A stretch of DNA of 64,000 nucleotides from Heloderma charlesbogerti (Eukaryota > Chordata > Lepidosauria > Squamata > Helodermatidae), in NCBI GenBank assembly GCA_026122225.1, contig JANEZZ010001494.1, positions 1,240,001 through 1,304,000 on the forward strand. The letters run 5' to 3'. The translations under genes were made by a program, and so were the position numbers. A model generated the notes under the pieces. That model worked only from the letters and a program-made list of their open reading frames with translations. It did not search any database and had not been told where the DNA came from. Position 1 is the first letter of the stretch. Each line of letters begins with the position of its first letter. This document shows, in pieces, positions 19,205 through 64,000 of this stretch.

Positions 19205-22200
19205 CCCCTTCATGGATCACTGCCTTGTTGTGGCGAAGGGGCTTGCATAACTCAGTGAAGCCATAAGCTATGCCGTGCAGGGCCACCCAAGATGGACAGG
19301 TCATGGCAGAGAGTTCTGACAAAATGTGGTCCACTGGAGAAGGAAATGGCAACCCACTCCAGTATTCTTGCCAAGAAAACCCCATGGAACGTATTACAAG
19401 GCTAAAAGAGATGACGCCGGAAGATGAGCCCCTCAGGTCGGAAGGTGTCCAATATGCTACTGGGGAAGAGCAGAGGGTATTTCCAAGTAGCGCCAGAAAG
19501 AGTGAAGCGGCTGGGCCAAACCCGAAAGGACACTCAGCTGTGGATGTGTCTGGCGGTGAAAAGAAAATCCGATGCTGTAAAGAACAATATTGTTTAGGAA
19601 CCTGGAATGTCAGATCAATGAATCAAGGTAAGCTGGAGGTGGTCAAACATGAGATGGCAAGATTGAACATCGACATCTTGGGAATCAGCGAACTAAAATG
19701 GACAGGCATGGGCGAATTTAATTCAGGTGACCATCATATCTACTATTGTGGGCAAGAATCCCTTAGAAGAAATGGAGTAGCACTCATAGTCAACAAAAGG
19801 GTGGGAAAAGCAGTACTGGGGTACAATCTTAAAAATGATAGAATGATCTCAGTACGAATCCAAGGCAAACCATTCAACATCACAGTAATTCAAGTCTATG
19901 CCCCAACCACTGATGCCGAAGAAGCTGAGGTTGATCGGTTCTATGAAGACCTACAACACCTTCTAGAACTAACACCAAAAAAAGATGTCCTCTTCATCAT
20001 AGGGGATTGGAATGCTAAAGTAGGAAGTCAAGAAATCACTGGGATAACAGGCAGGCATGGCCTTGGTGTACAAAATGAAGCAGGACAAAAGCTAATAGAG
20101 TTTTGCCAAGAGAACATGCTGATCATAGCAAACACTCTTTTCCAACAGCACAAGAGGCGACTCTACACATGGACGTCACCAGATGGTCAATATCGAAATC
20201 AGATTGATTATGTCCTTTGCAGCCAAAGATGGAGAAGCTCTATACAGTCAGTAAAAACAAGACCTGGAGCTGACTGTGGCTCAGATCATGAGCTGCTTCT
20301 TGCAACATTTCGGCTTAAATTGAAGAACGTCGGGAAAACCACTAAACCGTTCAGGTATGACCTAAATCATATCCCTGATGAATATACAGTGGAGGTGAGG
20401 AATAGATTTCAGGGATTAGACCTGATAGACAGAGTGCCTGAGGAACTATGGACGGAGGTCCGTAACATTGTTCAGGAGGCAGCAACGAAATCCGTCCCAA
20501 AGAAAAAGAAATGCAAGAAAGCCAAGTGGCTGTCTGATGAGGCTTTACAAGTAGCTCATGAAAGAAGGGAAGCGAAAAGCAAGGGAGAAAGGGGAAGATA
20601 TATCCAACTGAATGCAGAGTTCCAGAGAATAGCAAGGAGAGACAAGAAGGCCTTCTTAAATGAACAATGCAAAGAAATCGAGGAAAACAACAGAATGGGA
20701 AAGACTAGAGATCTCTTCAAGAAAATTGGAGATCTCAAGGGAACGTTTTGTGCAAAGACGGGCATGATAAAGGACAAAGAAGGCAGGGACCTAACAGAAG
20801 CAGATGAGATTAAGAAGAGGTGGCAAGAATACACAGAAGAACTATACAGGAAAGATCTGAATGTCCCTGATAGCCATGATAGTGCGGTCACTGAACTTGA
20901 GCCGGACATCCTTGAGAGTGAAGTCAAGTGGGCCTTAGGAAGCATTAGTAACAACAAAGCTAGCGGAGATGACAGTATTCCAGCCGAGCTATTTAAAATC
21001 CTAAAAGATGATGCTGTTAAAGTGCTGCATTCAATATGCCAACAAATCTGGAACACTCAACAGTGGCCACAAGACTGGAAAAGGTCAGTTTACATTCCAA
21101 TTCCAAAGAAGGGCAATGCCAAAGAGTGTTCCAACTACCGCACAATTGCGCTCATTTCACATGCCAGCAAGGTGATGCTCAAAATCCTACAAGCTAGGCT
21201 TCAGCAGTATGCGAACCGAGAACTACCGGAAGTACAAGCTGGGTTTAGAAGAGGCAGAGGAACTAGAGATCAAATCGCCAACATTCGCTGCATCATGGAG
21301 AAAGCAAGAGAATTCCAGAAAAACGTCTATTTCTGCTTCATTGACTATGCTAAAGCCTTTGATTGTGTGGATCACAACAAACTGTGGCAAATTCTTAAAG
21401 TGATGGGACTACCAGACCACCTTACCTGTCTCCTGAGAAACCTGTACGAGGGTCAAGAAGCAACAGTAAGAACCAGACATGGAACAACCGATTGGTTCAA
21501 AATTGGGAAAGGAGTACGACAAGGCTTCATATTGTCACCCTGCTTATTTAACTTATATGCAGAGTACATCATGAGAAATGCCGGGCTGGATGAATCAGAG
21601 GTCGGAATTAAGATTGCCGGGAGAATTATCAACAACCTCCGATATGCAGATGATACCACCCTAATGGCAGAAAGCGAAGAGGATCTAAAGAGCCTCTTGT
21701 TGAGGGTGAAAGAGGAGAGTGCAAAAGCTGGTTTGAAACTCAACATTAAAAAAATGAAGATCATGTCATCTGGCCCTATCACTTCCTGGCATATAGAAGG
21801 GGAAGAAATGGAAGCAGTGACAGATTTTACTTTCTTGGGCTCCAAGATCACCGCAGATGGTGACTGTAGCCATGAAATTAAAAGACGCTTGCTCCTTGGG
21901 AGGAAAGCTATGGCAAACCTAGACAGCATAGTAAGAAGCAGAGACATCACCTTGCCGACAAAGGTCCGTCTAATCAAAGCTATGGTTTTCCCAGTAGTAA
22001 TGTATGGCTGTGAGAGCTGGACTATAAGGAAGGCTGAGCGCTGAAGAATTGATGCTTTCGAACTGTGGTGCTGGAGAAGACTGTTACGAGTCCCCTGGAC
22101 TGCAAGGAGGTCAAATCAGTCCATCCTAAAGGAAATCAACCCTGAGTGCTCATTGGAAGGACAGATAATGAAGCTGAAGCTCCAATATTTTGGCCACCTA

Positions 22201-22422
22201 ATGCGAAGAGAAAATTCCCTGGAAAAGACCCTGATGCTGGGAAAGACTGAAGGCAAAAGGAGAAGGGGACGGCAGAGGATAAGATGGCTAGATAGCATCA
22301 CGGATGCAATGAATATGAACTTGAGCACACTCCGGGAGAGAGCGCAGGACAGGAAGGCCTGGCGTGCTATGGTCCATGGGGTCACGAAGAGTTGGACACG
22401 ACTGAACGACTTAACAACAACA
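19205..22422 (+). mobile_element. Near-full-length BovB (RTE-clade) LINE
   Basis: The element is 3218 bp, flanked by an exact 10-bp duplication (ATCTGTGCAG) and ending in the short (CAA) tail usual for RTE elements. The 5' region contains GGAAATGGCAACCCACTCCAG, typical of BovB. It is the only copy in the window that keeps both 5' end and 3' end. It encodes an endonuclease-reverse transcriptase broken by a single stop codon (next entry). Confidence 0.93.
19270..22044 (+). pseudogene. BovB endonuclease/reverse transcriptase, one premature stop
   Basis: The frame of 924 codons codes for an apurinic-type endonuclease followed by reverse transcriptase, the two enzymes of target-primed reverse transcription. 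Visible motifs are TWNVRS at residue 111, GDWNAKVG near 245, SDHELL near 338, the RT fingers FIDYAKAFDCVDH near 690 and the catalytic YADD at 792-795. The frame stops at TGA (22042-22044) where the palindrome copies have CGA (Arg), a CpG-type transition. The remaining 120 or so C-terminal codons (WCWRRLLRVPW, zinc-knuckle-like region) continue in the same frame. The usual TGA stop after RLND reads TTA here. Otherwise the copy looks recent. The start at 19270 is the first in-frame ATG; the true start may be later. Confidence 0.9.
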
Positions 22423-22446
22423 ATCTGTGCAGCAAGGAAGGGGTAG
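22045..22446 (+). pseudogene. C-terminal remainder of the BovB protein
   Basis: In-frame continuation after the premature stop, through KLKLQYFGHLMRRENSLEK to KSWTRLND. It runs past the normal stop position (TGA replaced by TTA) into flanking DNA before ending at TAG. Confidence 0.8.
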
Positions 22447-23071: not shown

Positions 23072-23116
23072 GATGAAAAGAACCAAGTATTAACCACCAA
23101 CATTTGGCTGCACATG
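23072..23116 (+). CDS. CHRNA7-like: Nicotinic acetylcholine receptor alpha-7/alpha-8-like subunit, 45-bp exon (exon 3)
   Basis: This exon codes for 15 residues, DEKNQVLTTNIWLHM, the start of the beta-strand 1 to loop D region of the extracellular ligand-binding domain of a Cys-loop receptor. The sequence shows a long pyrimidine tract and CAG acceptor just before 23072 and a GTGAGT donor at 23117. The 45-bp length and phase 0 at both ends match the third coding exon of nicotinic receptor genes as known from other vertebrates. Subunits of this type assemble as pentameric acetylcholine-gated cation channels (high calcium permeability for alpha-7) in neuronal and non-neuronal plasma membranes. 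The N-Q-V-L-T-T-N-x-W-L run is shared widely among nicotinic subunits, so this exon alone does not fix the subunit; the next exon does. No disabling change is visible. Confidence 0.88.
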
Positions 23117-25012: not shown

Positions 25013-25287
25013 CTGAGATAGTTTGAGGGAAGGTAAGAGCTGAGGGATTTTTCTGGAGCTCTGAATGTGAATTATCCACAAGAAACTGAATGGGGGAGCG
25101 GTGTCTGTTGGGATGTGAAGCTGGCAATCACTACCTATGCTCCGCCTGTAAAGACAAATATTATGAAATGCCATAGTTCTCCACTGACCTCATTCAAAGG
25201 ACCCCCCCCCCCGAACAGCTTGCAACCCTTGGGTTCTCATTGCTTGGATGATTGGGGTGCAAGCGCATAACAAATGACATGATTAAG

Positions 25288-25408
25288 GGCACAATCCTAT
25301 GCATGTTAGACAGAAAAAAAAGTCCTACAACTGCAACATGCTGGCTGGGGAATGCTGGGAGTTGTGGGACTTTTTTCTGTCTAAACTTGCATAGGACTGT
25401 GCCATGAA
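25288..25408. mobile_element. Fold-back MITE (CCTACAACT family)
   Basis: GCACAATCCTATGCATG...AAAAGTCCTACAACT on the left pairs with GGGAGTTGTGGGACTTTTTTC...GCATAGGACTGTGCC on the right. It is the same family as the perfect hairpins at 57.34 and 57.74 kb, but more diverged. Confidence 0.7.
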
Positions 25409-33597: not shown

Positions 33598-33707
33598 TAT
33601 TGGACAGACTACTACTTACAATGGAATATGTCTGATTACCCTGGAGTGAAGAATGTCCGTTTTCCTGATGGTCAGATATGGAAGCCAGATATCCTTCTAT
33701 ATAACAG
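33598..33707 (+). CDS. CHRNA7-like: Nicotinic acetylcholine receptor alpha-7/alpha-8-like subunit, 110-bp exon (exon 4)
   Basis: This exon codes for 36 full codons plus two bases and follows the 45-bp exon in phase 0. It holds two ligand-site elements: loop D (WTDYYLQWN, with the conserved Trp in QWN) and the start of loop A ([10 protein letters not shown], with the conserved W, P, D and Tyr). An N-glycosylation sequon (N-M-S) follows QWN. The [12 protein letters not shown] run is characteristic of the alpha-7/alpha-8 group and unlike alpha-9/alpha-10 or the heteromeric subunits. The acceptor is TTTCAAG, the donor CAG/GTAGGC, and 110 bp with exit phase 2 is the usual size of this family's exon 4. 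The Tyr just before WTD and the second Tyr of DYYL may favour the sauropsid alpha-8 paralogue over alpha-7; I cannot decide without an alignment. The reading frame is intact. Confidence 0.92.
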
Positions 33708-39149: not shown

Positions 39150-41185
39150 ATTTTTATTTTATTATTTATTATTATATTTATTAATCGCCCATCTGGCTGG
39201 TCACCCAGCCACTCTGGGCAATGTACAGCATATAATAAAACAGTTTAAAACAATAAAATTCTACAATAAAGACATTTTCTAAAATACCCTGACCCACCCC
39301 AAATGCCTGCCTGAACAACCACGTTTTTAATGCATGATGGAAGCTTATTAAAGAGGGGGCATGGCGGAGTTCCCTAGGGAGGGAGTTCCACAGAGTGGGG
39401 GCCACCACAGAAAAGGCCCTCTCCCTCGTTCCCACCAGTCTAGCTGTCCTGGCTGATGGGACAGAGAGAAGGCCATCCGAGGCTGATCTTCTTAAGTGGC
39501 CTGTCTGGTGCTGCTGGAGGCGCTCCTTAAGATAGGCTGGGCCGGAACCATATAGGGTTTTAAAGGTCAAAACCAACACCATGAATTTGGCCCGGAAAAC
39601 AACTGGTAACCAGTGCAACTCCTTCAGCACTGGAGTGATGTGATCTCGCTGGCGGCTGCCTTTAATCAGGCGAGCTGCTGCGTTCTGTACCAGCTGCAGC
39701 TTCCGAACCGTTTTCAAGGGTAACCCCACGTAGAGCGCATTACAGTAGTGTAAACGAGAGGAGACCAGGGCATGTACTACAGATGGGACCAGATGGTCGG
39801 GAAGGAAGGGGCGCAGCTGCCATATCAGATGGAGTTGGTACAGCGCTGTTCGGCTCACAGCTGACATCTGAGCCTCCATGAAAAGCTGGGAGTCCAAAAT
39901 GACCCCCAGGCTGTGGACCTGGTGTTTTAAGGGTAGCCGTATCCCATTCAACACCAGGTCAACATCCCCCAGCCTCCTCTTGTCTCCCACCAAAAGTACC
40001 TCGGTCTTGTCACGGTTCAGCTTCAGCTTATTCCTCCCCATCCAGCCACTCACCATCTCCAGACATTTGGACAGGGATTCTACGGCCAACCTTGGTGAAG
40101 ATTTGAACGAGAGGTAGAGCTGCGTGTCACCTGCATATTGATGACACTGCACCCCAAATCTCCTGATGATAGCCCCCAGCGGCTTCACATAGATGTTAAA
40201 TAGCATTGGGGAGAGGATGGAACCCTGTGGCAACCCACAAGTGAGTGGCCATGGGTCCGAAACCTCTTCTCCCAGTGCTACCCTCTGGTACTTGCCAGAG
40301 AGGAAGGCCCGGAACCACTGCAATATGGTGTCTCCAATGCCCAACCCCTCCAGGCAGTCCAGGAGGATACCATGGTCAACGGTATCAAAAGCCGCTGAGA
40401 GGTCGAGGAGAACAAGGAAGGAGCATTCACCCCTATCCAGAGCCCTCCTCATATCATCTACCAAGGCGACCAAGGCCGTTTCTGTCCCATGCCCAAGCCT
40501 GAAGCCCGACTGAAATGGGTCTAGATAATCAGTTTCTTCCAAGTGTCTTCAACTGCATCGCCACCACCCGCTCAATCACCTTGCCCCCAAATGGCAGATT
40601 TGAGACTGGGTGAAAGTTGTTCAGAACTTGAGGATCCAAGGAGGGCTTCTTAAGAGCAGTCTTATCATTGCCTCCTTGAGGGCTGATGGCATCACTCCCT
40701 CCTCAAGGGATTTGTTCACCACCGCCCTGATCCCCTCACCCAGTCTCTCTCTGCAGCCCATAATGAGCCAAGATGGGCAAGGATCAAGTAAGCAGGTGGT
40801 CGGCCTTACAGATGAAAGCACCTTGTCCACTTCATCAGGAGGAAGAAGCTGGAACCGATCCCACAAAACCGGTTTGCCACAGGCCGCCTCTTGCTCACTA
40901 ACTGTATCCACAGTGTGCAGAGTAACACTCCTAATTTGATCAATTTTATCTGCAAAGTGCCTTGCCAAAGCCTCACAGGAGGTCTTAGAATGCTCCAGTG
41001 GTTCAGGAGCCACAGGACTGACCAGGCTCCGGACCACTTGGAACAGCCTCCTGGGACAGCACTCTGCTGTATTAAATAATAGAGGCAGTATGCCTCTGAT
41101 AACCAGATACTGTGGGGCAACAGTGCAGGGGAGCTATTATGCTCATTCCCTGCTTTGGGGCCTCCCCAAAGCACCTGGTTGGATA
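39150..41185 (-). mobile_element. L2-clade LINE, 5'-truncated
   Basis: The 3' tail (minus strand GGGCGATTAATAAATATA, A/T-rich) is at 39160-39190 and the coding region runs on the minus strand to about 41.18 kb. Upstream of 40545 the reverse-transcriptase N-terminus is present but frameshifted (VTLHTVDTVSEQEAACGK, LLPPDEVDKVLSSVRPT, SLDPQVLNNFHPVSNLPF). Confidence 0.88.
39181..40542 (-). pseudogene. L2-clade reverse transcriptase, catalytic box mutated
   Basis: The 453-codon frame covers most of the RT and the thumb/C-terminal region. Motifs are QSGFRLGHGTETAL at residue 11, LLDLSAAFDTVDHGIL from 46, GLPQGSILSPMLFNIYV from 103 and KLKLNRDKTEVLLVG further on. The catalytic box, normally YADD, reads YAGD at 136-139 (codon GGT at 40129-40131), which removes one metal-binding aspartate. 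Together with frameshifts upstream and the missing endonuclease, this copy is dead, though the rest of the frame is open. Confidence 0.88.
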
Positions 41186-49743: not shown

Positions 49744-50859
49744 GTCATGGTGCTGGAGCTTGAGCACCTCAATGACACCATGAGCTAAACCGTGAAGGGA
49801 CACCCAACACAGGAAGGTCATGGAAGAGAGGTCAGACTAAATACGATCCCTGGGGAAGGTAACGGCAACCCACCCCAGTATTCTTGCCGTGAAAACTAAA
49901 CGGATCAATACAACCAGAGATATGTCGGTATACCATCACAGGATGGGACTCCCATGTTGGAAGATGGTCCAAATGCTACTGGGGAGGAACAGAGCATAAG
50001 TTCAACTAACCCCAGATGTGATGACGCAGCTAGCTCAAAGCCGAAAGGACAGCTAGCAGCCGACGGTGCTGGTGGTGAACGACGAATCTGATGTTCTAAA
50101 GATCAACCCACCATAGGAACCTGGAATGTAAGATCTATGAGCCAGGGCAAATTGGATGTGGTTATTGGGGAGATGTCAAGATTAAATATAGACATTTTGG
50201 GTGTCAGCGAACTGAAATGGACTGGAATGGGCCACTTCACATCAGATGACCACCAAATCTACTACTGTGGACAAGAGGACCACAGAAGAAATGGAGTAGC
50301 CTTCATAATTAATAATAAAGTGGCTAAAGCAGTGCTTGGATACAATCCAAAAAATGATAGAATCATCTCAATTTGAATTCAGGGTAAGCCATTTAACATC
50401 ACAGTGATCCAAATATATGCCCCAACCACATATGCGGAAGAAGCAGAAGTAGATCAGTTCTATGAGGATCTGCAGCACCTACTGGATAATACGCCGAAAA
50501 GAGATGTTATTTTCATTACTGGAATGCTAAGGTGGGTAGTCAAACGACACCTGGAATTATAGGCAAGCATGGTCTGGGAGAACAAAATAAAGTGGGACAT
50601 AGGCTGATAGAATTTTGCCAAGGCAACTCACTGTGCATAACAAACACTCTCTTCCAACAACCTAAAAGACGACTTTATACATGGACTTCACCAGATGGTA
50701 GACACTGAAATCAGATTGACTACATCCTTTGTAGTCAAAGGTGGCAGACATCTATACAGTCGGTAAAAACAAGACCTGGAGCTGACTGTAGTTCAGATCA
50801 CGAACTTCTTATTGCACGATTTAGAATCAGACTAAAGAGAATAGGGAAGACCTACAGAT
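49707..50859 (+). pseudogene. Second RTE element (BovB-like subfamily), 5' part
   Basis: Contains GGCAACCCACCCCAGTATTC in the leader and then the endonuclease start (GTWNVRSMSQGKLDVV, ISELKWTGMG-like). Residue-level divergence from the BovB at 19.2 kb is clear (for example SRLNIDILGVSELKWTGMGH), so it is a separate lineage rather than a recent copy. The frame stops at TGA (50374-50376, CGA in BovB). A small deletion near 50518 removes the GD of the GDWNAKVG motif. The element resumes at 54055 after an insertion. Confidence 0.88.
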
Positions 50860-53800
50860 TTATTTATTTATTTATTAAATTTATTAATCCCCCATCTGAC
50901 TGGTCACCCAGCCACTCTGGGCGATGTACAACCCACCATAAAACAATTTAAAACAATAAAATTTTACCATATTTTTTTTTTTAATACCCTTGTTGTTGTT
51001 GTTGTTGTTGTTCAGTCGTTCAGTTGTGTCCAACTCTTCGTGACCCCATGGACCATAGCACGCCAGGCCTTCCTGTCCTGCGCTCTCTCCCGGAGCGTGC
51101 TCAAGTTCATATTCATTGCATCTGTGATGCTATCTAGCCATCTCATCCTCTGCCGTCCCCTTCTCCTTTTGCCTTCTGTCTTTCCCAGCATCAGGGTCTT
51201 TTCCAGGGAGTTTTCTCTTCGCATTAGGTGGCCAAAATATTTGAGCTTCAGCTTCATTATCTGTCCTTCCAATGAGCACTCAGGGTTGATTTCCTTTAGG
51301 ATGGACTGATTTGACCTCCTTGCAGTCCAGGGGACTCGTAAGAGTCTTCTCCAGCACCACAGTTCGAAAGCATCAATTCTTCGGCGCTCAGCCTTCCTTA
51401 TAGTCCAGCTCTCACAGCCATACATTACTACTGGGAAAACCATAGCTTTGATTAGACGGACCTTTGTCGGCAAGGTGATGTCTCTGCTTCTTACTATGCT
51501 GTCTAGGTTTGCCATAGCTTTCCTCCCAAGGAGCAAGCGTCTTTTAATTTCATGGCTACAGTCACCGTCTGCGGTGATCTTGGAGCCCAAGAAAGTAAAA
51601 TCTGTCACTGCTTCCATTTCTTCCCCTTCTATATGCCAGGAAGTGATGGGGCCAGATGACATGATCTTAGTTTTTTTAATGTTGAGTTTCAAACCAGCTT
51701 TTGCACTCTCCTCTTTCACCCTCAACAAGAGGCTCTTGAGATCCTCTTCGCTTTCTGCCATTAGGGTGGTATCGTCTGCATATCGGACGTTGTTGATAAT
51801 TCTCCCGGCAATCTTAATTCCGACCTGTGATTCATCCAACCCGGCATTTCTCATGATGTACTCTGCATATAAGTTAAATAAGCATGGTGACAATATGCAG
51901 CCTTGTCGTACTCCTTTCCCAATTTTGAACCACTTGGTTGTTCCATGTCTGGTTCTTACTGTTGCTTCTTGACCCTCGTACAGGTTTCTCAGGAGACAGG
52001 TAAGGTGGTCTGGTACTCCCATCACTTTAAGAATTTGCCACAGTTTGTTGTGATCCACACAATCAAAGGCTTTAGCGTAGTCAATGAAGCAGAAATAGAC
52101 GTTTTTCTGGAATTCTCTTGCTTTCTCCATGATGCAGCGAATGTTGGCGATTTGATCTCTAGTTCCTCTGCCTCTTCTAAACCCAGCTTGTACTTCCGGT
52201 AGTTCTCGGTTCGCATACTGCTGCAGCCTAGCTTGTAGGATTTTGAGCATCACCTTGCTGGCATGTGAAATGAGCGCAATTGTGCGGTAGTTTGAACACT
52301 CTTTGGCGTTGCCCTTCTTTGGAATTGGAATGTAAACTGACCTTTTCCAGTCTTGTGGCCACTGTTGAGTGTTCCAGATTTGTTGGCATATTGAATGCAG
52401 CACTTTAACAGCATCATCTTTTAGGATTTTAAATAGCTCGGCTGGAATACTGTCATCTCCGCTAGCTTTGTTGTTACTAATGCTTCCTAAGGCCCACTTG
52501 ACTTCACTCTCTAGGATGTCCAGCTCAAGTTCAGTGACCGCACTATCATGGCTATCAGGGACATTAAGATCTTCCCTGTATAGTTCTTCTGTGTATTCTT
52601 GCCACCTCTTCTTAATCTCATCTGCTTCTGTTAGGTCCCTGCCTTCTTTGTCCTTTATCATGCCCGTCTTTGCACAAAACGTTCCCTTGAGATCTCCAAT
52701 TTTCTTGAAGAGATCTCTAGTCTTTCCCATTCTGTTGTTTTCCTCGATTTCTTTGCATTGTTCATTTAAGAAGGCCTTCTTGTCTCTCCTTGCTATTCTC
52801 TGGAACTCTGCATTCAGTTGGGTATATCTTCCCCTTTCTCCTTTGCTTTTCGCTTCCCTTCTTTCGTGAGCTACTTGTAAAGCCTCATCAGACAGCCACT
52901 TGGCTTTCTTGCATTTCTTTTTCTTTGGGATGGATTGAGTTGCTGCCTCCTGAACAATGTTACGGACCTCCGTCCATAGTTCCTCAGGCACTCTGTCTAT
53001 CAGGTCTAATCCCTGAAATCTATTCCTCACCTCCACTGTATATTCATCAGGGATATGATTTAGGTCATACCTGAACGGTTTAGTGGTTTTCCCGACGTTC
53101 TTCAATTTAAGCCGAAATTTTGCAAGAAGCAGCTCATGATCTGAGCCACAGTCAGCTCCAGGTCTTGTTTTTACTGACTGTATGGAGCTTCTCCATCTTT
53201 GGCTGCAAAGGACATAATCAATCGGATTTCGATATTGACCATCTGGTGACGTCCATGTGTAGAGTCGCCTCTTGTGCCTGAACAACCATGTTTTTAATGC
53301 ACGATGGAAGCTCATTAAAGAGGGGGCATGACGGAGTTCCCTAGGGAGGGAGTTCCACAGAGTGGGGGCCACCACAGAGAAGGCCCTCTCCCTCGTCCCT
53401 ACCAGTCTAGCTGTCCTGGCTGATGGGACAGAGAGAAGGCCATCCGAGGCTGATCTTGTTAAGCGGCCTGTCTGGTGTTGCTGGAGGCGCTCCTTAAGAT
53501 AGGCTGGGCCGGAACCATATAGGGTTTTAAAGGTCAAAACCAACACCTTGAATTTGGCCCGGAAAACAACTGGTAACCAGTGCAACTCCTTCAGCACTGG
53601 AGTGATGTGATCTCGCCGGCGGCTGCCTTTAATCAGGTGAGCCGCCGCGTTCTGTACCAGCTGCAGCTTCCAAACCGTCTTCAAGGGTAACCCCACATAG
53701 AGCGCATTACAGTAGTCTAAACGAGAGGAAACCAGGGCATGTACTACCGATGGGAGCAGATGGTCGGGAAGGAAGGGGCGCAGCCGCCGTATCAGATGGA

Positions 53801-54054
53801 GTTGATACAGCGCTGTCCGGCTCACAGCTGACACCCGAGCCTCCATGGACAGCTGGGAGTCCAAAATGACCCCCAGGCTGCAGACCTGGTCTTTCAAGGG
53901 TAGCCATACCCCATTCAACACCAGGTCAACATCCCCCAGCCTCCTCTTGTCTCCCACCAAAAGTACCTCGGTCTTGTCAGGGTTGAGCTTCAGCTTATTC
54001 CTCCCCATCCAGCCACTCACCGTCTCCAGACATTTGGTCAGGGATTCTACGGCC
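50860..54054 (-). mobile_element. L2-clade LINE fragment inserted in the RTE element, itself split by BovB
   Basis: The 3' end is at 50860-50989 (antisense TTTATTAATCCCCCATCTGAC, GTCACCCAGCCACTCTGGGC) and the C-terminal coding part at 53278-54054. The sequence is very close to the L2 at 39.2 kb. It is 5'-truncated inside the RT gene, after the catalytic box. Confidence 0.88.
50990..53277 (-). mobile_element. BovB LINE, 5'-truncated, inserted in L2 (arm 1)
   Basis: The 3' end is the (GTT)n/(CAA)n tail at 50990-51012. The 5' end joins L2 at CTCTTGTGC/CTGAACAACC with no evident duplication, losing the first half of the endonuclease. The frame is fully open from the junction to the normal stop, including CGA at the codon that is TGA in the 19.2 kb copy. 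Confidence 0.92.
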
Positions 54055-54179
54055 AGATCAGTTAGATATGAGCTCACTAATATTCCTAATGAATATGCAG
54101 TGGAGGTGGAGAACAGATTTAAGGGACTAGATTTAGTAGATAGGGTCCCGGAAGAACTATGGACAGAAGTTCGCAACAT
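51012..54179 (-). CDS. Chimeric L2::BovB open reading frame, 1055 codons
   Basis: One uninterrupted frame crosses three elements. Residues 1-41 are antisense RTE sequence without meaning, about 42-300 are the L2 C-terminal region (MGRNKLKLNPDKTEVLLVG, LVQNAAAHLIKGSRRRDH, LWNSLPRELRHAPS), and about 301-1055 are BovB from HKRRLYTWTSPDGQ to WTQLND. The BovB part keeps SDHELL, FIDYAKAFDCVDH, and the catalytic YADD at about residue 800. It lacks the endonuclease start (TWNVRS, GDWNAKVG) and so would lack target cutting. The fusion is probably accidental, since L2 and BovB happen to be in the same frame. There is no evidence of transcription. The equivalent frame in arm 2 runs off the window. Confidence 0.75.
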   Translation of the reverse strand: MLRTSVHSSSGTLSTKSSPLNLFSTSTAYSLGILVSSYLTDLAVESLTKCLETVSGWMGRNKLKLNPDKTEVLLVGDKRRLGDVDLVLNGVWLPLKDQVCSLGVILDSQLSMEARVSAVSRTALYQLHLIRRLRPFLPDHLLPSVVHALVSSRLDYCNALYVGLPLKTVWKLQLVQNAAAHLIKGSRRRDHITPVLKELHWLPVVFRAKFKVLVLTFKTLYGSGPAYLKERLQQHQTGRLTRSASDGLLSVPSARTARLVGTRERAFSVVAPTLWNSLPRELRHAPSLMSFHRALKTWLFRHKRRLYTWTSPDGQYRNPIDYVLCSQRWRSSIQSVKTRPGADCGSDHELLLAKFRLKLKNVGKTTKPFRYDLNHIPDEYTVEVRNRFQGLDLIDRVPEELWTEVRNIVQEAATQSIPKKKKCKKAKWLSDEALQVAHERREAKSKGERGRYTQLNAEFQRIARRDKKAFLNEQCKEIEENNRMGKTRDLFKKIGDLKGTFCAKTGMIKDKEGRDLTEADEIKKRWQEYTEELYREDLNVPDSHDSAVTELELDILESEVKWALGSISNNKASGDDSIPAELFKILKDDAVKVLHSICQQIWNTQQWPQDWKRSVYIPIPKKGNAKECSNYRTIALISHASKVMLKILQARLQQYANRELPEVQAGFRRGRGTRDQIANIRCIMEKAREFQKNVYFCFIDYAKAFDCVDHNKLWQILKVMGVPDHLTCLLRNLYEGQEATVRTRHGTTKWFKIGKGVRQGCILSPCLFNLYAEYIMRNAGLDESQVGIKIAGRIINNVRYADDTTLMAESEEDLKSLLLRVKEESAKAGLKLNIKKTKIMSSGPITSWHIEGEEMEAVTDFTFLGSKITADGDCSHEIKRRLLLGRKAMANLDSIVRSRDITLPTKVRLIKAMVFPVVMYGCESWTIRKAERRRIDAFELWCWRRLLRVPWTARRSNQSILKEINPECSLEGQIMKLKLKYFGHLMRRENSLEKTLMLGKTEGKRRRGRQRMRWLDSITDAMNMNLSTLRERAQDRKAWRAMVHGVTKSWTQLND

Positions 54180-56129
54180 TGTTCAGGAGGTGGCAACAAA
54201 AAAAGTCCCAAAGAAAAAGAAAACCAAGAAGGCAAGATGGCTGTCTGCTGAGACACTGGAAGTAGCCCAAGAAAGAAGGAAAGCAAAAGGCAACAGTGAA
54301 AGGGGGAGATATGCCCAATTAAATGCAAAATCCAGAGGTTAGCCAGAAGAGAGAAGGAATTATTTTGAAACAAGCAATGCGCGGAAGTGGAAGAAGATAA
54401 TAGAATAGGAAGGACAAGAGACCTCTTCCAGAAAATTAGAAAAATCGGAGGTAAATTCCAGGCATGGAATGGGTATGATTAAAAACAAAGCTGGCAAGGA
54501 CCTAACAGAAGCAGAAGTGATCAAGAAAAGGTGGCAAGAATATATGGAAGATCTGTATAGGAAGGATAATAATATCGGGGATAGATTTGATTGTGTGGTC
54601 AGTGAGTTAGAGCCAGACATCCTGAAGAGTGAGGTTGAATGGGCCTTAAGAAGCATTGGTAATAACAAGGCAGCAGGAGACGACGGTATCCCAGCTGAAC
54701 TGTTTAAAATCTTGCAAGATGATGCTGTCAAGGTGATGCATGCCATATGCCAGCAAATTTGGAAAACACAAGAATGGCCATCAGATTGGAAAAAATCAAC
54801 TTATATCCCCATACCAAAAAGGGAAACACTAAAGAATGTTCAAACTATCGAACAGTGGCACTTATTTCACATGCCATTAAGGTAATGCTCAAGATCTTGC
54901 AAGGTAGACTCCAGCAATTCATGGAACAAGAATTGCCAGATGTACAAGCTGGGTTTAGAAAAGGCAGAGGAACTACAGACCAAATTGCCAATATCCGCTG
55001 GATAATGGAGAAAACCAGGGAGTTTCAGAAAAAACATCTATTTCTGTTTTATTGACTGTTCATCTAAAGCCTTTGACTGTGTGGATCATAACAAATTGTG
55101 GCAAGTTCTTGGTGGTATGGGGATACCAAATCATCTTGTCTGCCTCCTGAGGAATCTGTATAACGACCATGTAGCAACGGTAAGAACAGACCACGGAACA
55201 ACGGACTGGTTTAAGATTGGGAAGGGAGTACAGCAGGGTTGTATACTCTCACCCTACCTATTCAACCTGTATGCAGAACACATCATGCAACGTGCTGGGC
55301 TTGATGAAGCCAAGGCTGGAGTTAAAATCGCTGGAAGAAACATTAACAATCTCAGATATGCAGATGATACCACTTTAATGGCTGAAAGCGAGGAGGAGCT
55401 GAGGAACCTTATGACGAAGGTGAAAGAAGAAAGTGCAAAAGCTGGGTTGCAGTTAAACCTCAAAAAAACAAGATTATGGCAACCAGCTTGATTGATAACT
55501 GGCAAATAGCGGGAGAAAACGTGGAGGCAGTGACAGACTTTGTATTTCTAGGCACAAAGGTTACTGCAGACGCTGACTGCAGCCAGGAAATCAGAAGACT
55601 TTTACTTCTTGGAGGAGAGCAATGACAAATCTGGATAAAATAGTTAAGAGCAGAGACATCACACTGACAACAAAGGTCCGCATAGTTAAAGCAGTGATAT
55701 TCCCTGTAGTAACTGCTGCAAGAGCTGGACCATAAGGAAGGCTGAGCGAAGGAAGAGAGATGCTTTTGAACTGTGGTGCTGGAGGAAAATTCTGAGAGTG
55801 CCTTGGACTGCAAGAAGATCAAACCAGTCCATACTCCAGGAAATAAAGCCAGACTGCTCACTTGAGGGAATGATATTAAAGGCAAAACTGAAGTACTTTG
55901 GCCACATCATGAGAAGACAGGATACCCTGGAGAAGATGCTGATGCTAGGGAAAGTGGAAGGCAAAAGGAAGAGGGGCCGACCAAGGGCAAAATGGATGGA
56001 TGATATTCTGGAGGTGACGGACTCGACCTTGGGGGAGCTGGGGGTGGCGATGGCCGACAGAAAGCTCTGGCGTGGGGTGGTCCATGAAGTCACGAAGAGT
56101 CGGAAGTGACTGAACGAATAAACAACAAA
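54055..56129 (+). pseudogene. Second RTE element, 3' part (arm 1)
   Basis: Continuation of 49707-50859. Frames in order contain YTVEVENRF-like sequence, the RT fingers (AGFRKGRGTTDQIANIRWIM), DHNKLWQVLGGMG, the catalytic YADDTTLMAESEEE and the C-terminal WTARRSNQSILQEIKPDCSL. They are broken by frameshifts near 54.33, 54.83, 55.06, 55.49 and 55.61 kb. It ends AACGAATAAACAACAAA followed by a (TA)n(GA)n microsatellite. BovB-like but clearly diverged from the BovB copies here. Confidence 0.9.
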
Positions 56130-56175
56130 TATATATATATGTAGAGAGAGAGAGAGAGAGAGAGAAAGAGAGTAC
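56130..56175. repeat. (TA)n(GA)n microsatellite (mirrored at 59022-59068)
   Basis: Alternating TA then GA run at the tail of the RTE element. Confidence 0.9.
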
Positions 56176-57337
56176 TCTAGAGCAAGTGTCGCTCTGCAAA
56201 ACTTTTCATGGCTGGAAAAATAGAGCTGTTGTGTCTGGAACTAATGCCCCTTTGCAGATTTGTTGCCTATCAGTGCTGACTTGAGACATTTTTGTACCTG
56301 TCGCACTGACATTAAAAATGGAGTTGGGAAAGTGGCACATACTCTCTCTCTCTCTCTCTCTCTCTCTCAGATGTGCTGCCCGGAATGGGATGCTTCATAT
56401 TATATCACTGGTGGTAAAGCTGGGATTGTCATTGCAAAACCCCAAGACAATTGCATTCCTTTAGTAATTTTCATCTGGTCATTATTCTCTAGGGAAATCT
56501 CTAAGTGACTGGTCCAGACTTCAGATGAGTGGAGGAAGTGAGTCCCCAATGGGGTAACGGAAGCTACCAGACAGACTACACTTAGTCGTCACATGGGAGA
56601 CCCATAATCAGATCTCCTGATATCGATTTTCATTGCTTAAAAGCTGCCACAACAAATTATTTGAATTGCAGGCTTTGTCCATCAGAGGGGTTCATTTTGT
56701 GGGTTGGTTTTTTAAAGCAGTTTCCCCATTAAAATCACACATGCACGCACACACGCACGCACACACCCTGAAGCTGCTATTAGCCCTGGAGGTGAAAAAA
56801 TGCAGGGACTCATAATTTACCCATCTCTATGGCTAATAGTAGCTTGGAGGGGTGTCAGATTTCACTGGGCTCAGTGCTGCAACTCAGATTCAAATCCTGC
56901 CCATCCTGTGGCTCCTTTTAAGCGTGTAAAAATATGCCAGGATATCTAATCACCACATCGCATCTAATTATTTGGTCCTAATATAATGGAAAGGCAGGAT
57001 GGGGTAGCCTTGCTACCTGCAGGTAGCCTTGCTGAATGAGCTGGGTTGAAAAGATGAGTGTCTGACCATCGGTGAGAGAGAGCCCAGTCTCTGATGAAAG
57101 AAGAGCAACAGCAGTTCAAAATCTGTGAGGACACAGAAAACATACAATATCCCACTGTAGTGTGGAAAGTGAATTGCAATTCTGCTTGGGGCTTACAGCA
57201 AAGGAGCCAGGATTTATTAGTGCAAGGAGGGAGCTGTCTGCCTGGAAGCACCCTAACATCCTAGCCCAGCCACCGTCAGGACAGGAAAATGCCCACAATT
57301 ATGGTGCTTTCTGGAGAGAGCATGGCAGCTTACCAGC
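56176..57337. other. Non-transposon palindrome core flank
   Basis: Contains a (CT)n run at 56342-56369 and an (AC/GC)-rich run near 56741-56765, plus an AGGTAGCCTTGCTACCTGCAGGTAG direct/inverted motif near 57005-57030. No gene or known repeat was recognised. Repeated inverted at 57860-59021. Confidence 0.5.
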
Positions 57338-57459
57338 TAGGGGTGCAATCCTATGCATGTTTAGACAGAAAAAAGTCCTACAACTCCCAGCATTGCCCTG
57401 GGCAATGCTGGGAGTTGTAGGACTTTTTTCTGTCTAAACATGCATAGGATTACATCCTA
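57338..57459. mobile_element. Near-perfect hairpin MITE (CCTACAACT family), arm 1
   Basis: The left arm GTGCAATCCTATGCATG...AGTCCTACAACTCCCAGC is mirrored around 57399 by GCTGGGAGTTGTAGGACTTTTTTCTG... to GGATTACATCCTA. Stem of about 55 bp with essentially no loop. Confidence 0.85.
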
Positions 57460-57737
57460 CTAACTTGGCTTAGTGGTCCACAGCTGTTTCCCCCACCGTG
57501 GAAGTGTTTGCTAGGGTAATACCTGGGTGGTTTAGTGATAGCTGTGTAGCTCCTATTGGTGATTAAGCCACAGCTTTGGGAAATGCTGGTAATTATTTAA
57601 TTAATGACCAGCATTTCCCAAAGCTGTGGCTTAATCACCAATAGGAGCTACACAGCTATCACTAAACCACCCAGGTATTACCCTAGCAAACACTTCCACG
57701 GTGGGGGAAACAGCTGTGGACCACTAAGCCAAGTTAG

Positions 57738-57859
57738 TAGGATGTAATCCTATGCATGTTTAGACAGAAAAAAGTCCTACAACTCCCAGCATTGCCCAGG
57801 GCAATGCTGGGAGTTGTAGGACTTTTTTCTGTCTAAACATGCATAGGATTGCACCCCTA
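57738..57859. mobile_element. Near-perfect hairpin MITE, arm 2 copy
   Basis: Mirror image of 57338-57459 as part of the large palindrome. Confidence 0.85.
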
Positions 57860-59067
57860 GCTGGTAAGCTGCCATGCTCTCTCCAGAAAGCACCATAATT
57901 GTGGGCATTTTCCTGTCCTGACGGTGGCTGGGCTAGGATGTTAGGGTGCTTCCAGGCAGACAGCTCCCTCCTTGCACTAATAAATCCTGGCTCCTTTGCT
58001 GTAAGCCCCAAGCAGAATTGCAATTCACTTTCCACACTACAGTGGGATATTGTATGTTTTCTGTGTCCTCACAGATTTTGAACTGCTGTTGCTCTTCTTT
58101 CATCAGAGACTGGGCTCTCTCTCACCGATGGTCAGACACTCATCTTTTCAACCCAGCTCATTCAGCAAGGCTACCTGCAGGTAGCAAGGCTACCCCATCC
58201 TGCCTTTCCATTATATTAGGACCAAATAATTAGATGCGATGTGGTGATTAGATATCCTGGCATATTTTTACACGCTTAAAAGGAGCCACAGGATGGGCAG
58301 GATTTGAATCTGAGTTGCAGCACTGAGCCCAGTGAAATCTGACACCCCTCCAAGCTACTATTAGCCATAGAGATGGGTAAATTATGAGTCCCTGCATTTT
58401 TTCACCTCCAGGGCTAATAGCAGCTTCAGGGTGTGTGCGTGCGTGTGTGCGTGCATGTGTGATTTTAATGGGGAAACTGCTTTAAAAAACCAACCCACAA
58501 AATGAACCCCTCTGATGGACAAAGCCTGCAATTCAAATAATTTGTTGTGGCAGCTTTTAAGCAATGAAAATCGATATCAGGAGATCTGATTATGGGTCTC
58601 CCATGTGACGACTAAGTGTAGTCTGTCTGGTAGCTTCCGTTACCCCATTGGGGACTCACTTCCTCCACTCATCTGAAGTCTGGACCAGTCACTTAGAGAT
58701 TTCCCTAGAGAATAATGACCAGATGAAAATTACTAAAGGAATGCAATTGTCTTGGGGTTTTGCAATGACAATCCCAGCTTTACCACCAGTGATATAATAT
58801 GAAGCATCCCATTCCGGGCAGCACATCTGAGAGAGAGAGAGAGAGAGAGAGAGAGTATGTGCCACTTTCCCAACTCCATTTTTAATGTCAGTGCGACAGG
58901 TACAAAAATGTCTCAAGTCAGCACTGATAGGCAACAAATCTGCAAAGGGGCATTAGTTCCAGACACAACAGCTCTATTTTTCCAGCCATGAAAAGTTTTG
59001 CAGAGCGACACTTGCTCTAGAGTACTCTCTTTCTCTCTCTCTCTCTCTCTCTCTACATATATATATA
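57860..59067. other. Palindrome core flank, arm 2
   Basis: Inverted copy of 56130-57337. No gene recognised. Confidence 0.5.
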
Positions 59068-61143
59068 TTTGTTGTTTATTCGTTCAGTCACTTCCGACTC
59101 TTCGTGACTTCATGGACCACCCCACGCCAGAGCTTTCTGTCGGCCATCGCCACCCCCAGCTCCCCCAAGGTCGAGTCCGTCACCTCCAGAATATCATCCA
59201 TCCATTTTGCCCTTGGTCGGCCCCTCTTCCTTTTGCCTTCCACTTTCCCTAGCATCAGCATCTTCTCCAGGGTATCCTGTCTTCTCATGATGTGGCCAAA
59301 GTACTTCAGTTTTGCCTTTAATATCATTCCCTCAAGTGAGCAGTCTGGCTTTATTTCCTGGAGTATGGACTGGTTTGATCTTCTTGCAGTCCAAGGCACT
59401 CTCAGAATTTTCCTCCAGCACCACAGTTCAAAAGCATCTCTCTTCCTTCGCTCAGCCTTCCTTATGGTCCAGCTCTTGCAGTTACTACAGGGAATATCAC
59501 TGCTTTAACTATGCGGACCTTTGTTGTCAGTGTGATGTCTCTGCTCTTAACTATTTTATCCAGATTTGTCATTGCTCTCCTTCCAAGAAGTAAAAGTCTT
59601 CTGATTTCCTGGCTGCAGTCAGCGTCTGCAGTAACCTTTGTGCCTAGAAATACAAAGTCTGTCACTGCCTCCACGTTTTCTCCCGCTATTTGCCAGTTAT
59701 CAATCAAGCTGGTTGCCATAATCTTGTTTTTTTGAGGTTTAACTGCAACCCAGCTTTTGCACTTTCTTCTTTCACCTTCGTCATAAGGTTCCTCAGCTCC
59801 CCTTCGCTTTCAGCCATTAAAGTGGTATCATCTGCATATCTGAGATTGTTAATGTTTCTTCCAGCGATTTTAACTCCAGCCTTGGCTTCATCAAGCCCAG
59901 CACGTTGCATGTTGTGTTCTGCATACAGGTTGAATAGGTAGGGTGAGAGTATACAACCCTGCTGTACTCCCTTCCCAATCTTAAACCAGTCCGTTGTTCC
60001 GTGGTCTGTTCTTACCGTTGCTACATGGTCGTTATACAGATTCCTCAGGAGGCAGACAAGATGATTTGGTATCCCCATACCACCAAGAACTTGCCACAAT
60101 TTGTTATGATCCACACAGTCAAAGGCTTTAGATTCGAACAGTCAATAAAACAGAAATAGATGTTTTTTCTGAAACTCCCTGGTTTTCTCCATTATCCAGC
60201 GGATATTGGCAATTTGGTCTGTAGTTCCTCTGCCTTTTCTAAACCCAGCTTGTACATCTGGCAATTCTTGTTCCATGAATTGCTGGAGTCTACCTTGCAA
60301 GATCTTGAGCATTACCTTAATGGAATGTGAAATAAGTGCCACTGTTCGATAGTTTGAACATTCTTTAGTGTTTCCCTTTTTGGTATGGGGATATAAGTTG
60401 ATTTTTTCCAATCTGATGGCCATTCTTGTGTTTTCCAAATTTGCTGGCATATGGCATGCATCACCTTGACAGCATCATCTTGCAAGATTTTAAACAGTTC
60501 AGCTGGGATACCGTCGTCTCCTGCTGCCTTGTTATTACCAATGCTTCTTAAGGCCCATTCAACCTCACTCTTCAGGATGTCTGGCTCTAACTCACTGACC
60601 ACACAATCAAATCTATCCCCGATATTATTATCCTTCCTATACAGATCTTCCATATATTCTTGCCACCTTTTCTTGATCACTTCTGCTTCTGTTAGGTCCT
60701 TGCCAGCTTTGTTTTTAATCATACCCATTCCATGCCTGGAATTTACCTCCGATTTTTCTAATTTTCTGGAAGAGGTCTCTTGTCCTTCCTATTCTATTAT
60801 CTTCTTCCACTTCCGCGCATTGCTTGTTTCAAAATAATTCCTTCTCTCTTCTGGCTAACCTCTGGGATTTTGCATTTAATTGGGCATATCTCCCCCTTTC
60901 ACTGTTGCCTTTTGCTTTCCTTCTTTCTTGGGCTACTTCCAGTGTCTCAGCAGACAGCCATCTTGCCTTCTTGGTTTTCTTTTTCTTTGGGACTTTTTTT
61001 GTTGCCACCTCCTGAACAATGTTGCGAACTTCTGTCCATAGTTCTTCCGGGACCCTATCTACTAAATCTAGTCCCTTAAATCTGTTCTCCACCTCCACTG
61101 CATATTCATTAGGAATATTAGTGAGCTCATATCTAACTGATCT
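59068..61143 (-). pseudogene. Second RTE element, 3' part (arm 2)
   Basis: Inverted duplicate of 54055-56129. It differs by four small indels (3, 1, 2 and 1 bp) and a few substitutions, for example cattcc for catgcc near 60320, AACATGC for ATCATGC near 59910, and GGGG for GGAG near 59800. None restores the reading frame. Confidence 0.9.
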
Positions 61144-61920
61144 GGCCGTAGAATCCCTGACCAAATGTCTGGAGACGGTGAGTGGCTGGATGGGGAGGAA
61201 TAAGCTGAAGCTCAACCCTGACAAGACCGAGGTACTTTTGGTGGGAGACAAGAGGAGGCTGGGGGATGTTGACCTGGTGTTGAATGGGGTATGGCTACCC
61301 TTGAAAGACCAGGTCTGCAGCCTGGGGGTCATTTTGGACTCCCAGCTGTCCATGGAGGCTCGGGTGTCAGCTGTGAGCCGGACAGCGCTGTATCAACTCC
61401 ATCTGATACGGCGGCTGCGCCCCTTCCTTCCCGACCATCTGCTCCCATCGGTAGTACATGCCCTGGTTTCCTCTCGTTTAGACTACTGTAATGCGCTCTA
61501 TGTGGGGTTACCCTTGAAGACGGTTTGGAAGCTGCAGCTGGTACAGAACGCGGCGGCTCACCTGATTAAAGGCAGCCGCCGGCGAGATCACATCACTCCA
61601 GTGCTGAAGGAGTTGCACTGGTTACCAGTTGTTTTCCGGGCCAAATTCAAGGTGTTGGTTTTGACCTTTAAAACCCTATATGGTTCCGGCCCAGCCTATC
61701 TTAAGGAGCGCCTCCAGCAACACCAGACAGGCCGCTTAACAAGATCAGCCTCGGATGGCCTTCTCTCTGTCCCATCAGCCAGGACAGCTAGACTGGTAGG
61801 GACGAGGGAGAGGGCCTTCTCTGTGGTGGCCCCCACTCTGTGGAACTCCCTCCCTAGGGAACTCCGTCATGCCCCCTCTTTAATGAGCTTCCATCGTGCA
61901 TTAAAAACATGGTTGTTCAG
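61144..61920 (+). mobile_element. L2-clade LINE fragment (arm 2)
   Basis: Inverted duplicate of 53278-54054. Codes in the plus direction for the same L2 C-terminal region, open and in frame with the BovB that follows. Confidence 0.9.
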
Positions 61921-64000
61921 GCACAAGAGGCGACTCTACACATGGACGTCACCAGATGGTCAATATCGAAATCCGATTGATTATGTCCTTTGCAGCCAAA
62001 GATGGAGAAGCTCCATACAGTCAGTAAAAACAAGACCTGGAGCTGACTGTGGCTCAGATCATGAGCTGCTTCTTGCAAAATTTCGGCTTAAATTGAAGAA
62101 CGTCGGGAAAACCACTAAACCGTTCAGGTATGACCTAAATCATATCCCTGATGAATATACAGTGGAGGTGAGGAATAGATTTCAGGGATTAGACCTGATA
62201 GACAGAGTGCCTGAGGAACTATGGACGGAGGTCCGTAACATTGTTCAGGAGGCAGCAACTCAATCCATCCCAAAGAAAAAGAAATGCAAGAAAGCCAAGT
62301 GGCTGTCTGATGAGGCTTTACAAGTAGCTCACGAAAGAAGGGAAGCGAAAAGCAAAGGAGAAAGGGGAAGATATACCCAACTGAATGCAGAGTTCCAGAG
62401 AATAGCAAGGAGAGACAAGAAGGCCTTCTTAAATGAACAATGCAAAGAAATCGAGGAAAACAACAGAATGGGAAAGACTAGAGATCTCTTCAAGAAAATT
62501 GGAGATCTCAAGGGAACGTTTTGTGCAAAGACGGGCATGATAAAGGACAAAGAAGGCAGGGACCTAACAGAAGCAGATGAGATTAAGAAGAGGTGGCAAG
62601 AATACACAGAAGAACTATACAGGGAAGATCTTAATGTCCCTGATAGCCATGATAGTGCGGTCACTGAACTTGAGCTGGACATCCTAGAGAGTGAAGTCAA
62701 GTGGGCCTTAGGAAGCATTAGTAACAACAAAGCTAGCGGAGATGACAGTATTCCAGCCGAGCTATTTAAAATCCTAAAAGATGATGCTGTTAAAGTGCTG
62801 CATTCAATATGCCAACAAATCTGGAACACTCAACAGTGGCCACAAGACTGGAAAAGGTCAGTTTACATTCCAATTCCAAAGAAGGGCAACGCCAAAGAGT
62901 GTTCAAACTACCGCACAATTGCGCTCATTTCACATGCCAGCAAGGTGATGCTCAAAATCCTACAAGCTAGGCTGCAGCAGTATGCGAACCGAGAACTACC
63001 GGAAGTACAAGCTGGGTTTAGAAGAGGCAGAGGAACTAGAGATCAAATCGCCAACATTCGCTGCATCATGGAGAAAGCAAGAGAATTCCAGAAAAACGTC
63101 TATTTCTGCTTCATTGACTACGCTAAAGCCTTTGATTGTGTGGATCACAACAAACTGTGGCAAATTCTTAAAGTGATGGGAGTACCAGACCACCTTACCT
63201 GTCTCCTGAGAAACCTGTACGAGGGTCAAGAAGCAACAGTAAGAACCAGACATGGAACAACCAAGTGGTTCAAAATTGGGAAAGGAGTACGACAAGGCTG
63301 CATATTGTCACCATGCTTATTTAACTTATATGCAGAGTACATCATGAGAAATGCCGGGTTGGATGAATCACAGGTCGGAATTAAGATTGCCGGGAGAATT
63401 ATCAACAACGTCCGATATGCAGACGATACCACCCTAATGGCAGAAAGCGAAGAGGATCTCAAGAGCCTCTTGTTGAGGGTGAAAGAGGAGAGTGCAAAAG
63501 CTGGTTTGAAACTCAACATTAAAAAAACTAAGATCATGTCATCTGGCCCCATCACTTCCTGGCATATAGAAGGGGAAGAAATGGAAGCAGTGACAGATTT
63601 TACTTTCTTGGGCTCCAAGATCACCGCAGACGGTGACTGTAGCCATGAAATTAAAAGACGCTTGCTCCTTGGGAGGAAAGCTATGGCAAACCTAGACAGC
63701 ATAGTAAGAAGCAGAGACATCACCTTGCCGACAAAGGTCCGTCTAATCAAAGCTATGGTTTTCCCAGTAGTAATGTATGGCTGTGAGAGCTGGACTATAA
63801 GGAAGGCTGAGCGCCGAAGAATTGATGCTTTCGAACTGTGGTGCTGGAGAAGACTCTTACGAGTCCCCTGGACTGCAAGGAGGTCAAATCAGTCCATCCT
63901 AAAGGAAATCAACCCTGAGTGCTCATTGGAAGGACAGATAATGAAGCTGAAGCTCAAATATTTTGGCCACCTAATGCGAAGAGAAAACTCCCTGGAAAAG
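61921..64000 (+). mobile_element. BovB LINE, 5'-truncated (arm 2, cut by window end)
   Basis: Begins at CACAAGAGGCGACTCTACAC directly after the L2 fragment. The frame is open to the end of the window and includes FIDYAKAFDCVDH, YADD and the CGA (Arg) codon at 63813-63815 that is TGA in the 19.2 kb copy. Confidence 0.93.

Follow-up and report, generated by a model that had tools for sequence, protein, structure and literature searches.

The window analysed here, a stretch of 64,000 nucleotides from Heloderma charlesbogerti (assembly GCA_026122225.1, contig JANEZZ010001494.1, positions 1,240,001 to 1,304,000), ends in a nearly perfect palindrome of at least 12.8 kb, which is probably a technical fold-back, of a sequencing read or of its equivalent in the assembly graph. 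It is located in an alpha7-type nicotinic acetylcholine receptor gene, apparently in the intron that follows exon 4. Its two arms, matched by gapped alignment as far as the window permits, are as follows.

51198-57598, plus strand: left arm.
57599-64000, minus strand: right arm, an inverted copy of the left arm, cut by the window end.

The alignment runs outward from a centre between 57598 and 57599, pairs 51198-57598 with 57599-64000, and covers 6401/6402 bases of the arms with 10 differences in total. A repeat search returned the arms as blocks of 3136, 1883, 735, 552 and 104 nucleotides with complementarity of 99-100%; a match of this extent is far beyond chance. An ungapped mirror comparison paired at best 4050 of 6401 positions, because four insertions or deletions (indels) shift the register, and the gapped alignment was used instead. 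This alignment, reaching both 51198 and 64000, bears out the centre given in the original prediction. The span of 51198 to 64000 given there is right in its coordinates, but 51198 is the mirror image of the window end and not an arm boundary: on the left the same BovB-type element continues to 51002, and on the right the arm is truncated at 64000, so that the arm length is a lower bound. The right arm repeats the elements of the left arm in reverse and adds only small differences. The left arm runs on unbroken from the upstream sequence and the receptor exons, and we infer that it is the authentic copy.

Both arms meet within 16 bp at the turn: no more than 16 bases there are irregular, and none is additional.

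57591-57606, no strand assigned: central 16 bp (AATTATTTAATTAATG), with two of eight pairs mismatched; a possible remnant loop of a fold-back.

The mismatched pairs are 57596/57601 (T/T) and 57591/57606 (A/G), the other six being complementary. They are the two that the original prediction named, correctly, in the central 16 bp; the arms also have eight further differences, all between 54331 and 55715. The absence of a spacer given there is nearly accurate, except that the central 16 nucleotides are imperfect and readable as a short loop. In a fold of the single strand, the DNA of the centre makes a long hairpin that closes in a small AT loop, as expected of any palindrome. The central 16 nucleotides may represent the loop of a fold-back that was primed at a short stem, whether in the tube or in the cell, and the sequence fits either.

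An artefact is preferred because the junction, where the arms come together within 16 bases, has the form described for fold-back reads in the literature. In PMC12870357, the second segment of a fold-back read is required to map, on the opposite strand, no more than 200 bp from the turn, a majority of the reads flagged as artefacts have at most 11 unmatched bases there, fold-back reads make up approximately 0.55-0.6% of Oxford Nanopore Technologies (ONT) genomic DNA reads, and such reads can tangle assembly graphs. The same description, applied here to assembled sequence and not to reads, fits the palindrome: its second segment is the opposite strand of the same locus and lies within 200 bp of the turn, and the turn contains little or no foreign sequence. 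Inverted-repeat chimeras account for 0.18-7.33% in nanopore ligation libraries (PMC13141652), and palindromic reads for 45.8% (Arabidopsis) and 11.8% (gorilla) of amplified PacBio sets versus 0.5% of an unamplified control; inverted duplications in published gorilla sequences were gone after read correction (PMC6218980). For real palindromes, a review reports that they are stabilised even by short spacers and that, in a transgene array that was sequenced, asymmetric deletions were present at most of the inverted junctions (PMC8701086); a near-spacerless palindrome of at least 12.8 kb would thus be expected to be unstable.

From the form of the palindrome, the published base rates and the microsatellite argument given below, on which the verdict of artefact rests, we infer a technical origin and the following route. 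A molecule or read would arise in which the first half is followed by its own reverse complement, candidate routes being self-primed fold-back in the library or during amplification, ligation fold-back, read-through from a strand to its complement, and a missed hairpin adapter; the assembler would accept the fold-back, and the contig would reverse direction at 57598 and run back along its own strand. The original prediction had likewise leaned towards a missed adapter or an assembly fold-back, with a recent duplication second, an order that the evidence in the window fits without proving it.

The differences between the arms outside the centre are eight in number, four substitutions (at 55394, 55392, 55283 and 54873 in left-arm coordinates) and four indels (3 nucleotides at 55715, 1 at 55612, 2 at 55061 and 1 at 54331), and all of them fall in one stretch.

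54331-55715, plus strand: 1.4-kb stretch with all eight non-central differences, mirrored at approximately 59482-60866.

The probability of eight differences clustering in 1,385 of 6,393 bp is approximately 1.5e-4, or 5.7e-4 if the neighbouring pair is counted once, by a test devised after the cluster had been seen. The cluster, with its four indels, suggests a locally poor consensus or an allele switch, rather than uniform ageing. Judged against three other copies of a long interspersed nuclear element (LINE) in the window, which are only approximately 73-75% alike, the left arm carries the departing state at three sites (54331, 55392 and 55612) and the right arm at four (54873, 55283, 55394 and 55713-55715, the last of which could also be a gain on the left arm), and one site (55061) is unclear.

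This distribution bears on a sub-case of the artefact explanation, tentative at best, in which the assembly graph folded back between haplotypes, one allele forming the left arm and the other, in reverse complement, the right arm, and in which the contig may run backwards far beyond 6.4 kb; its likelihood is shared with that of the artefact as a whole and not added to it. Eight differences in 6.4 kb (approximately 0.13%) would be ordinary heterozygosity, lying within the range found in vertebrates, and the balance of departing states (three left, four right, one unclear) is as two alleles would give. Half of the differences are indels, however, all eight are clustered, and two microsatellites, a class of sequence that is usually polymorphic, are identical between the arms.

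56143-56172, plus strand: imperfect AG microsatellite of 15 units, without difference between the arms.
56342-56368, plus strand: CT microsatellite of 13.5 units, likewise without difference between the arms.

A CA-rich tract is also identical between the arms. If the eight differences were accumulated mutations, they would represent approximately 55,000-125,000 generations at assumed rates of 0.5-1e-8. The chance that both dinucleotide loci would stay unchanged over that span is negligible at an assumed microsatellite mutation rate of 1e-4 per generation and 0.7-11% at 1e-5. An age derived from the substitutions alone was therefore rejected, being contradicted by the microsatellites unless their mutation rate is low. 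For arms whose microsatellites are of equal length, the simplest readings are that both come from one molecule, that they are alleles which separated recently, that the duplication is very young, or that polishing or gene conversion has homogenised the copies.

Several observations weigh against a technical fold-back. The balanced departing bases are somewhat better accounted for by two alleles, or by two real copies, than by errors in a single read. Two young LINE regions in the window keep long open reading frames, of 1056 codons (fused) and 925 codons, the copy at 5026-7297 being without one; base quality therefore looks fair, and eight clustered errors are less easily explained. The centre has no extra bases in which a remnant of an adapter could show, and its imperfect 16 bp may themselves be a source of some stability. 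Finally, if the assembly was made from PacBio HiFi reads, the odds of an artefact would be lower, such reads being virtually free of fold-backs in PMC12870357, a study with three PacBio samples in all.

That the sequenced animal carries a real inverted duplication of very recent origin is unlikely; the formation of such a duplication can be outlined. A broken or stalled strand would have folded at a short interrupted inverted repeat, with AATTATTTAATTAATG as a loop of approximately 16 nucleotides and a pair such as AATGCTGGT/ACCAGCATT as the stem around it, and would then have been copied into a head-to-head repeat with minimal spacer, in the manner of template switching of the origin-dependent inverted-repeat amplification (ODIRA) type or of fold-back repair. 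The centre does resemble a short, AT-rich, imperfect loop between stems, departing states are found on both arms, and in yeast 89 of 92 analysed inverted amplicon junctions lie at pre-existing interrupted inverted repeats of 2-14 bp (PMC10766183). The preferred size in yeast is 40-80 bp, however, with closely spaced repeats disfavoured (PMC10766183), and the 16-nucleotide loop is smaller than this preference unless the stem is long; the stem, for its part, is indistinguishable from the palindrome itself. Such palindromes are moreover described as prone to rearrangement (PMC8701086), and the identical microsatellites require either extreme youth or homogenisation. It is quite unlikely that a germline palindrome, at least 12.8 kb long and imperfect over its central 16 nucleotides, is seen here newly formed and nearly spacerless, before breakage at its centre or asymmetric deletion had stabilised it. 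The arms of gene-conversion palindromes on sex chromosomes are separated by a unique spacer. That an old palindrome is held identical here by similar arm-to-arm gene conversion is very improbable: the long difference-free stretches beside the divergent 1.4 kb could be conversion tracts, but there is no real spacer (16 irregular bp at most), and a search that was not exhaustive recognised no receptor exon or other non-transposon domain in the arms. Palindromes of this kind are discussed for sex chromosomes in PMC3403216.

The neuronal receptor gene named in the original prediction proved to be of the alpha7 type, with two exons found upstream of the palindrome by tblastn with receptor peptides.

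23072-23116, plus strand: exon 3 of the alpha7-type nicotinic acetylcholine receptor gene (DEKNQVLTTNIWLHM).
33598-33707, plus strand: exon 4 of that gene, 110 bp long and flanked by AG and GT.

The exon numbers are presumed from the human gene. The translation of exon 4 matches the Pfam domain Neur_chan_LBD (1e-11), and among the best 60 of its 148 matches in the Protein Data Bank, alpha-7 chains come top (5e-19), the best muscle alpha subunit chain scoring 7e-10. Within this type, the gene may be alpha7 or the paralogue alpha8 of birds and reptiles. Both exons were missed by receptor motif patterns and by an exon search based on codon usage and splice signals. Exon 5 was not recognised in the window, where tblastn with the part of alpha7 from exon 5 onward gave six weak rows (best E 0.41), none of them exon-like. 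With exons 3 and 4 upstream and no exon 5 recognised, the palindrome therefore seems to be located in the intron after exon 4, its visible left end being approximately 17.5 kb downstream of that exon.

The left arm looks like ordinary intron, composed of nested transposons, the two dinucleotide microsatellites and a palindromic element resembling a miniature inverted-repeat transposable element (MITE). The family names used here for the LINEs of the window, BovB-type and L2/CR1-like, are those that we take to apply; judged by its repeat families only, the host is probably a squamate reptile.

51002-53277, minus strand: young BovB-type LINE copy, 98.2% identical to 20148-22423, with an RVT_1 domain in the frame 51015-54182.
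53278-54062, minus strand: L2/CR1-like LINE fragment, 94.9% identical to 39311-40088.
54064-56128, plus strand: older BovB-type copy, approximately 75% identical to the young copies, with its 5' part at approximately 50114-50822.
57341-57457, no strand assigned: palindromic MITE-like element whose stem of 52 bp (57347-57451) is perfect; the mirror image of the element is at 57740-57856.

The L2/CR1-like element seems to have been split by the young BovB-type copy, as positions 50858-50971 match 39156-39268 (86.8%), which adjoins the match at 39311-40088. Taken together, the matches outline an apparent three-level nest at 50114-56128, in which an old BovB-type element (plus strand) would have been broken by an L2/CR1-like element (minus strand) and this in turn by a young BovB-type element (minus strand). 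Pfam reverse transcriptase domains were found in three of the four transposon frames submitted. The open frame of 1056 codons (51015-54182, minus strand) continues from the L2/CR1-like fragment into the young BovB-type reverse transcriptase, and is probably a chance in-frame fusion of the two LINEs. Further young BovB-type copies at 5026-7297 and 20148-22423 are 95-98% identical to the copy in the palindrome arm, which suggests recent activity. The stretch between the microsatellites and the MITE-like element has no other long matches in the window. No natural hairpin seen near the centre is stronger than the 52-bp stem of the MITE-like element. The element was considered as the point of fold-back and rejected, the turn being 141 bp beyond its edge. 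By eye, the element may have a TA target duplication, and a related copy, approximately 86% identical, is present at approximately 25284-25399.

If the palindrome is an artefact, as is likely, the assembly contains a false inverted duplication within a neurotransmitter receptor gene that is conserved. This could disrupt the gene model beyond exon 4 and give rise to false structural variants and false duplicated transposons. If it is real, it would be a natural case, of a kind rarely found, of a long vertebrate palindrome with almost no spacer, useful for understanding how such structures form and resolve.

A search for papers on lizard palindromes, judged by titles and the beginnings of abstracts, gave none on this structure. 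Among the closest known systems, with the palindromes of sex chromosomes it has in common arms of several kb that are more than 99% identical, but it differs in having no unique spacer and no gene recognised within the arms. With the inverted duplication junctions of ODIRA or fold-back repair it shares head-to-head repeats that could be joined via a short loop between stems, but its loop of approximately 16 nucleotides contrasts with the preferred 40-80 bp, and no second junction is seen. The fold-back artefacts of long reads (ONT fold-backs, missed SMRTbell adapters and palindromes of amplification) differ from it in that no adapter remnant is found at its centre; they resemble it in that opposite-strand arms of one locus meet within a few bases, in that the second arm brings no substantial new sequence, and in that the arm length is in the range of long reads.

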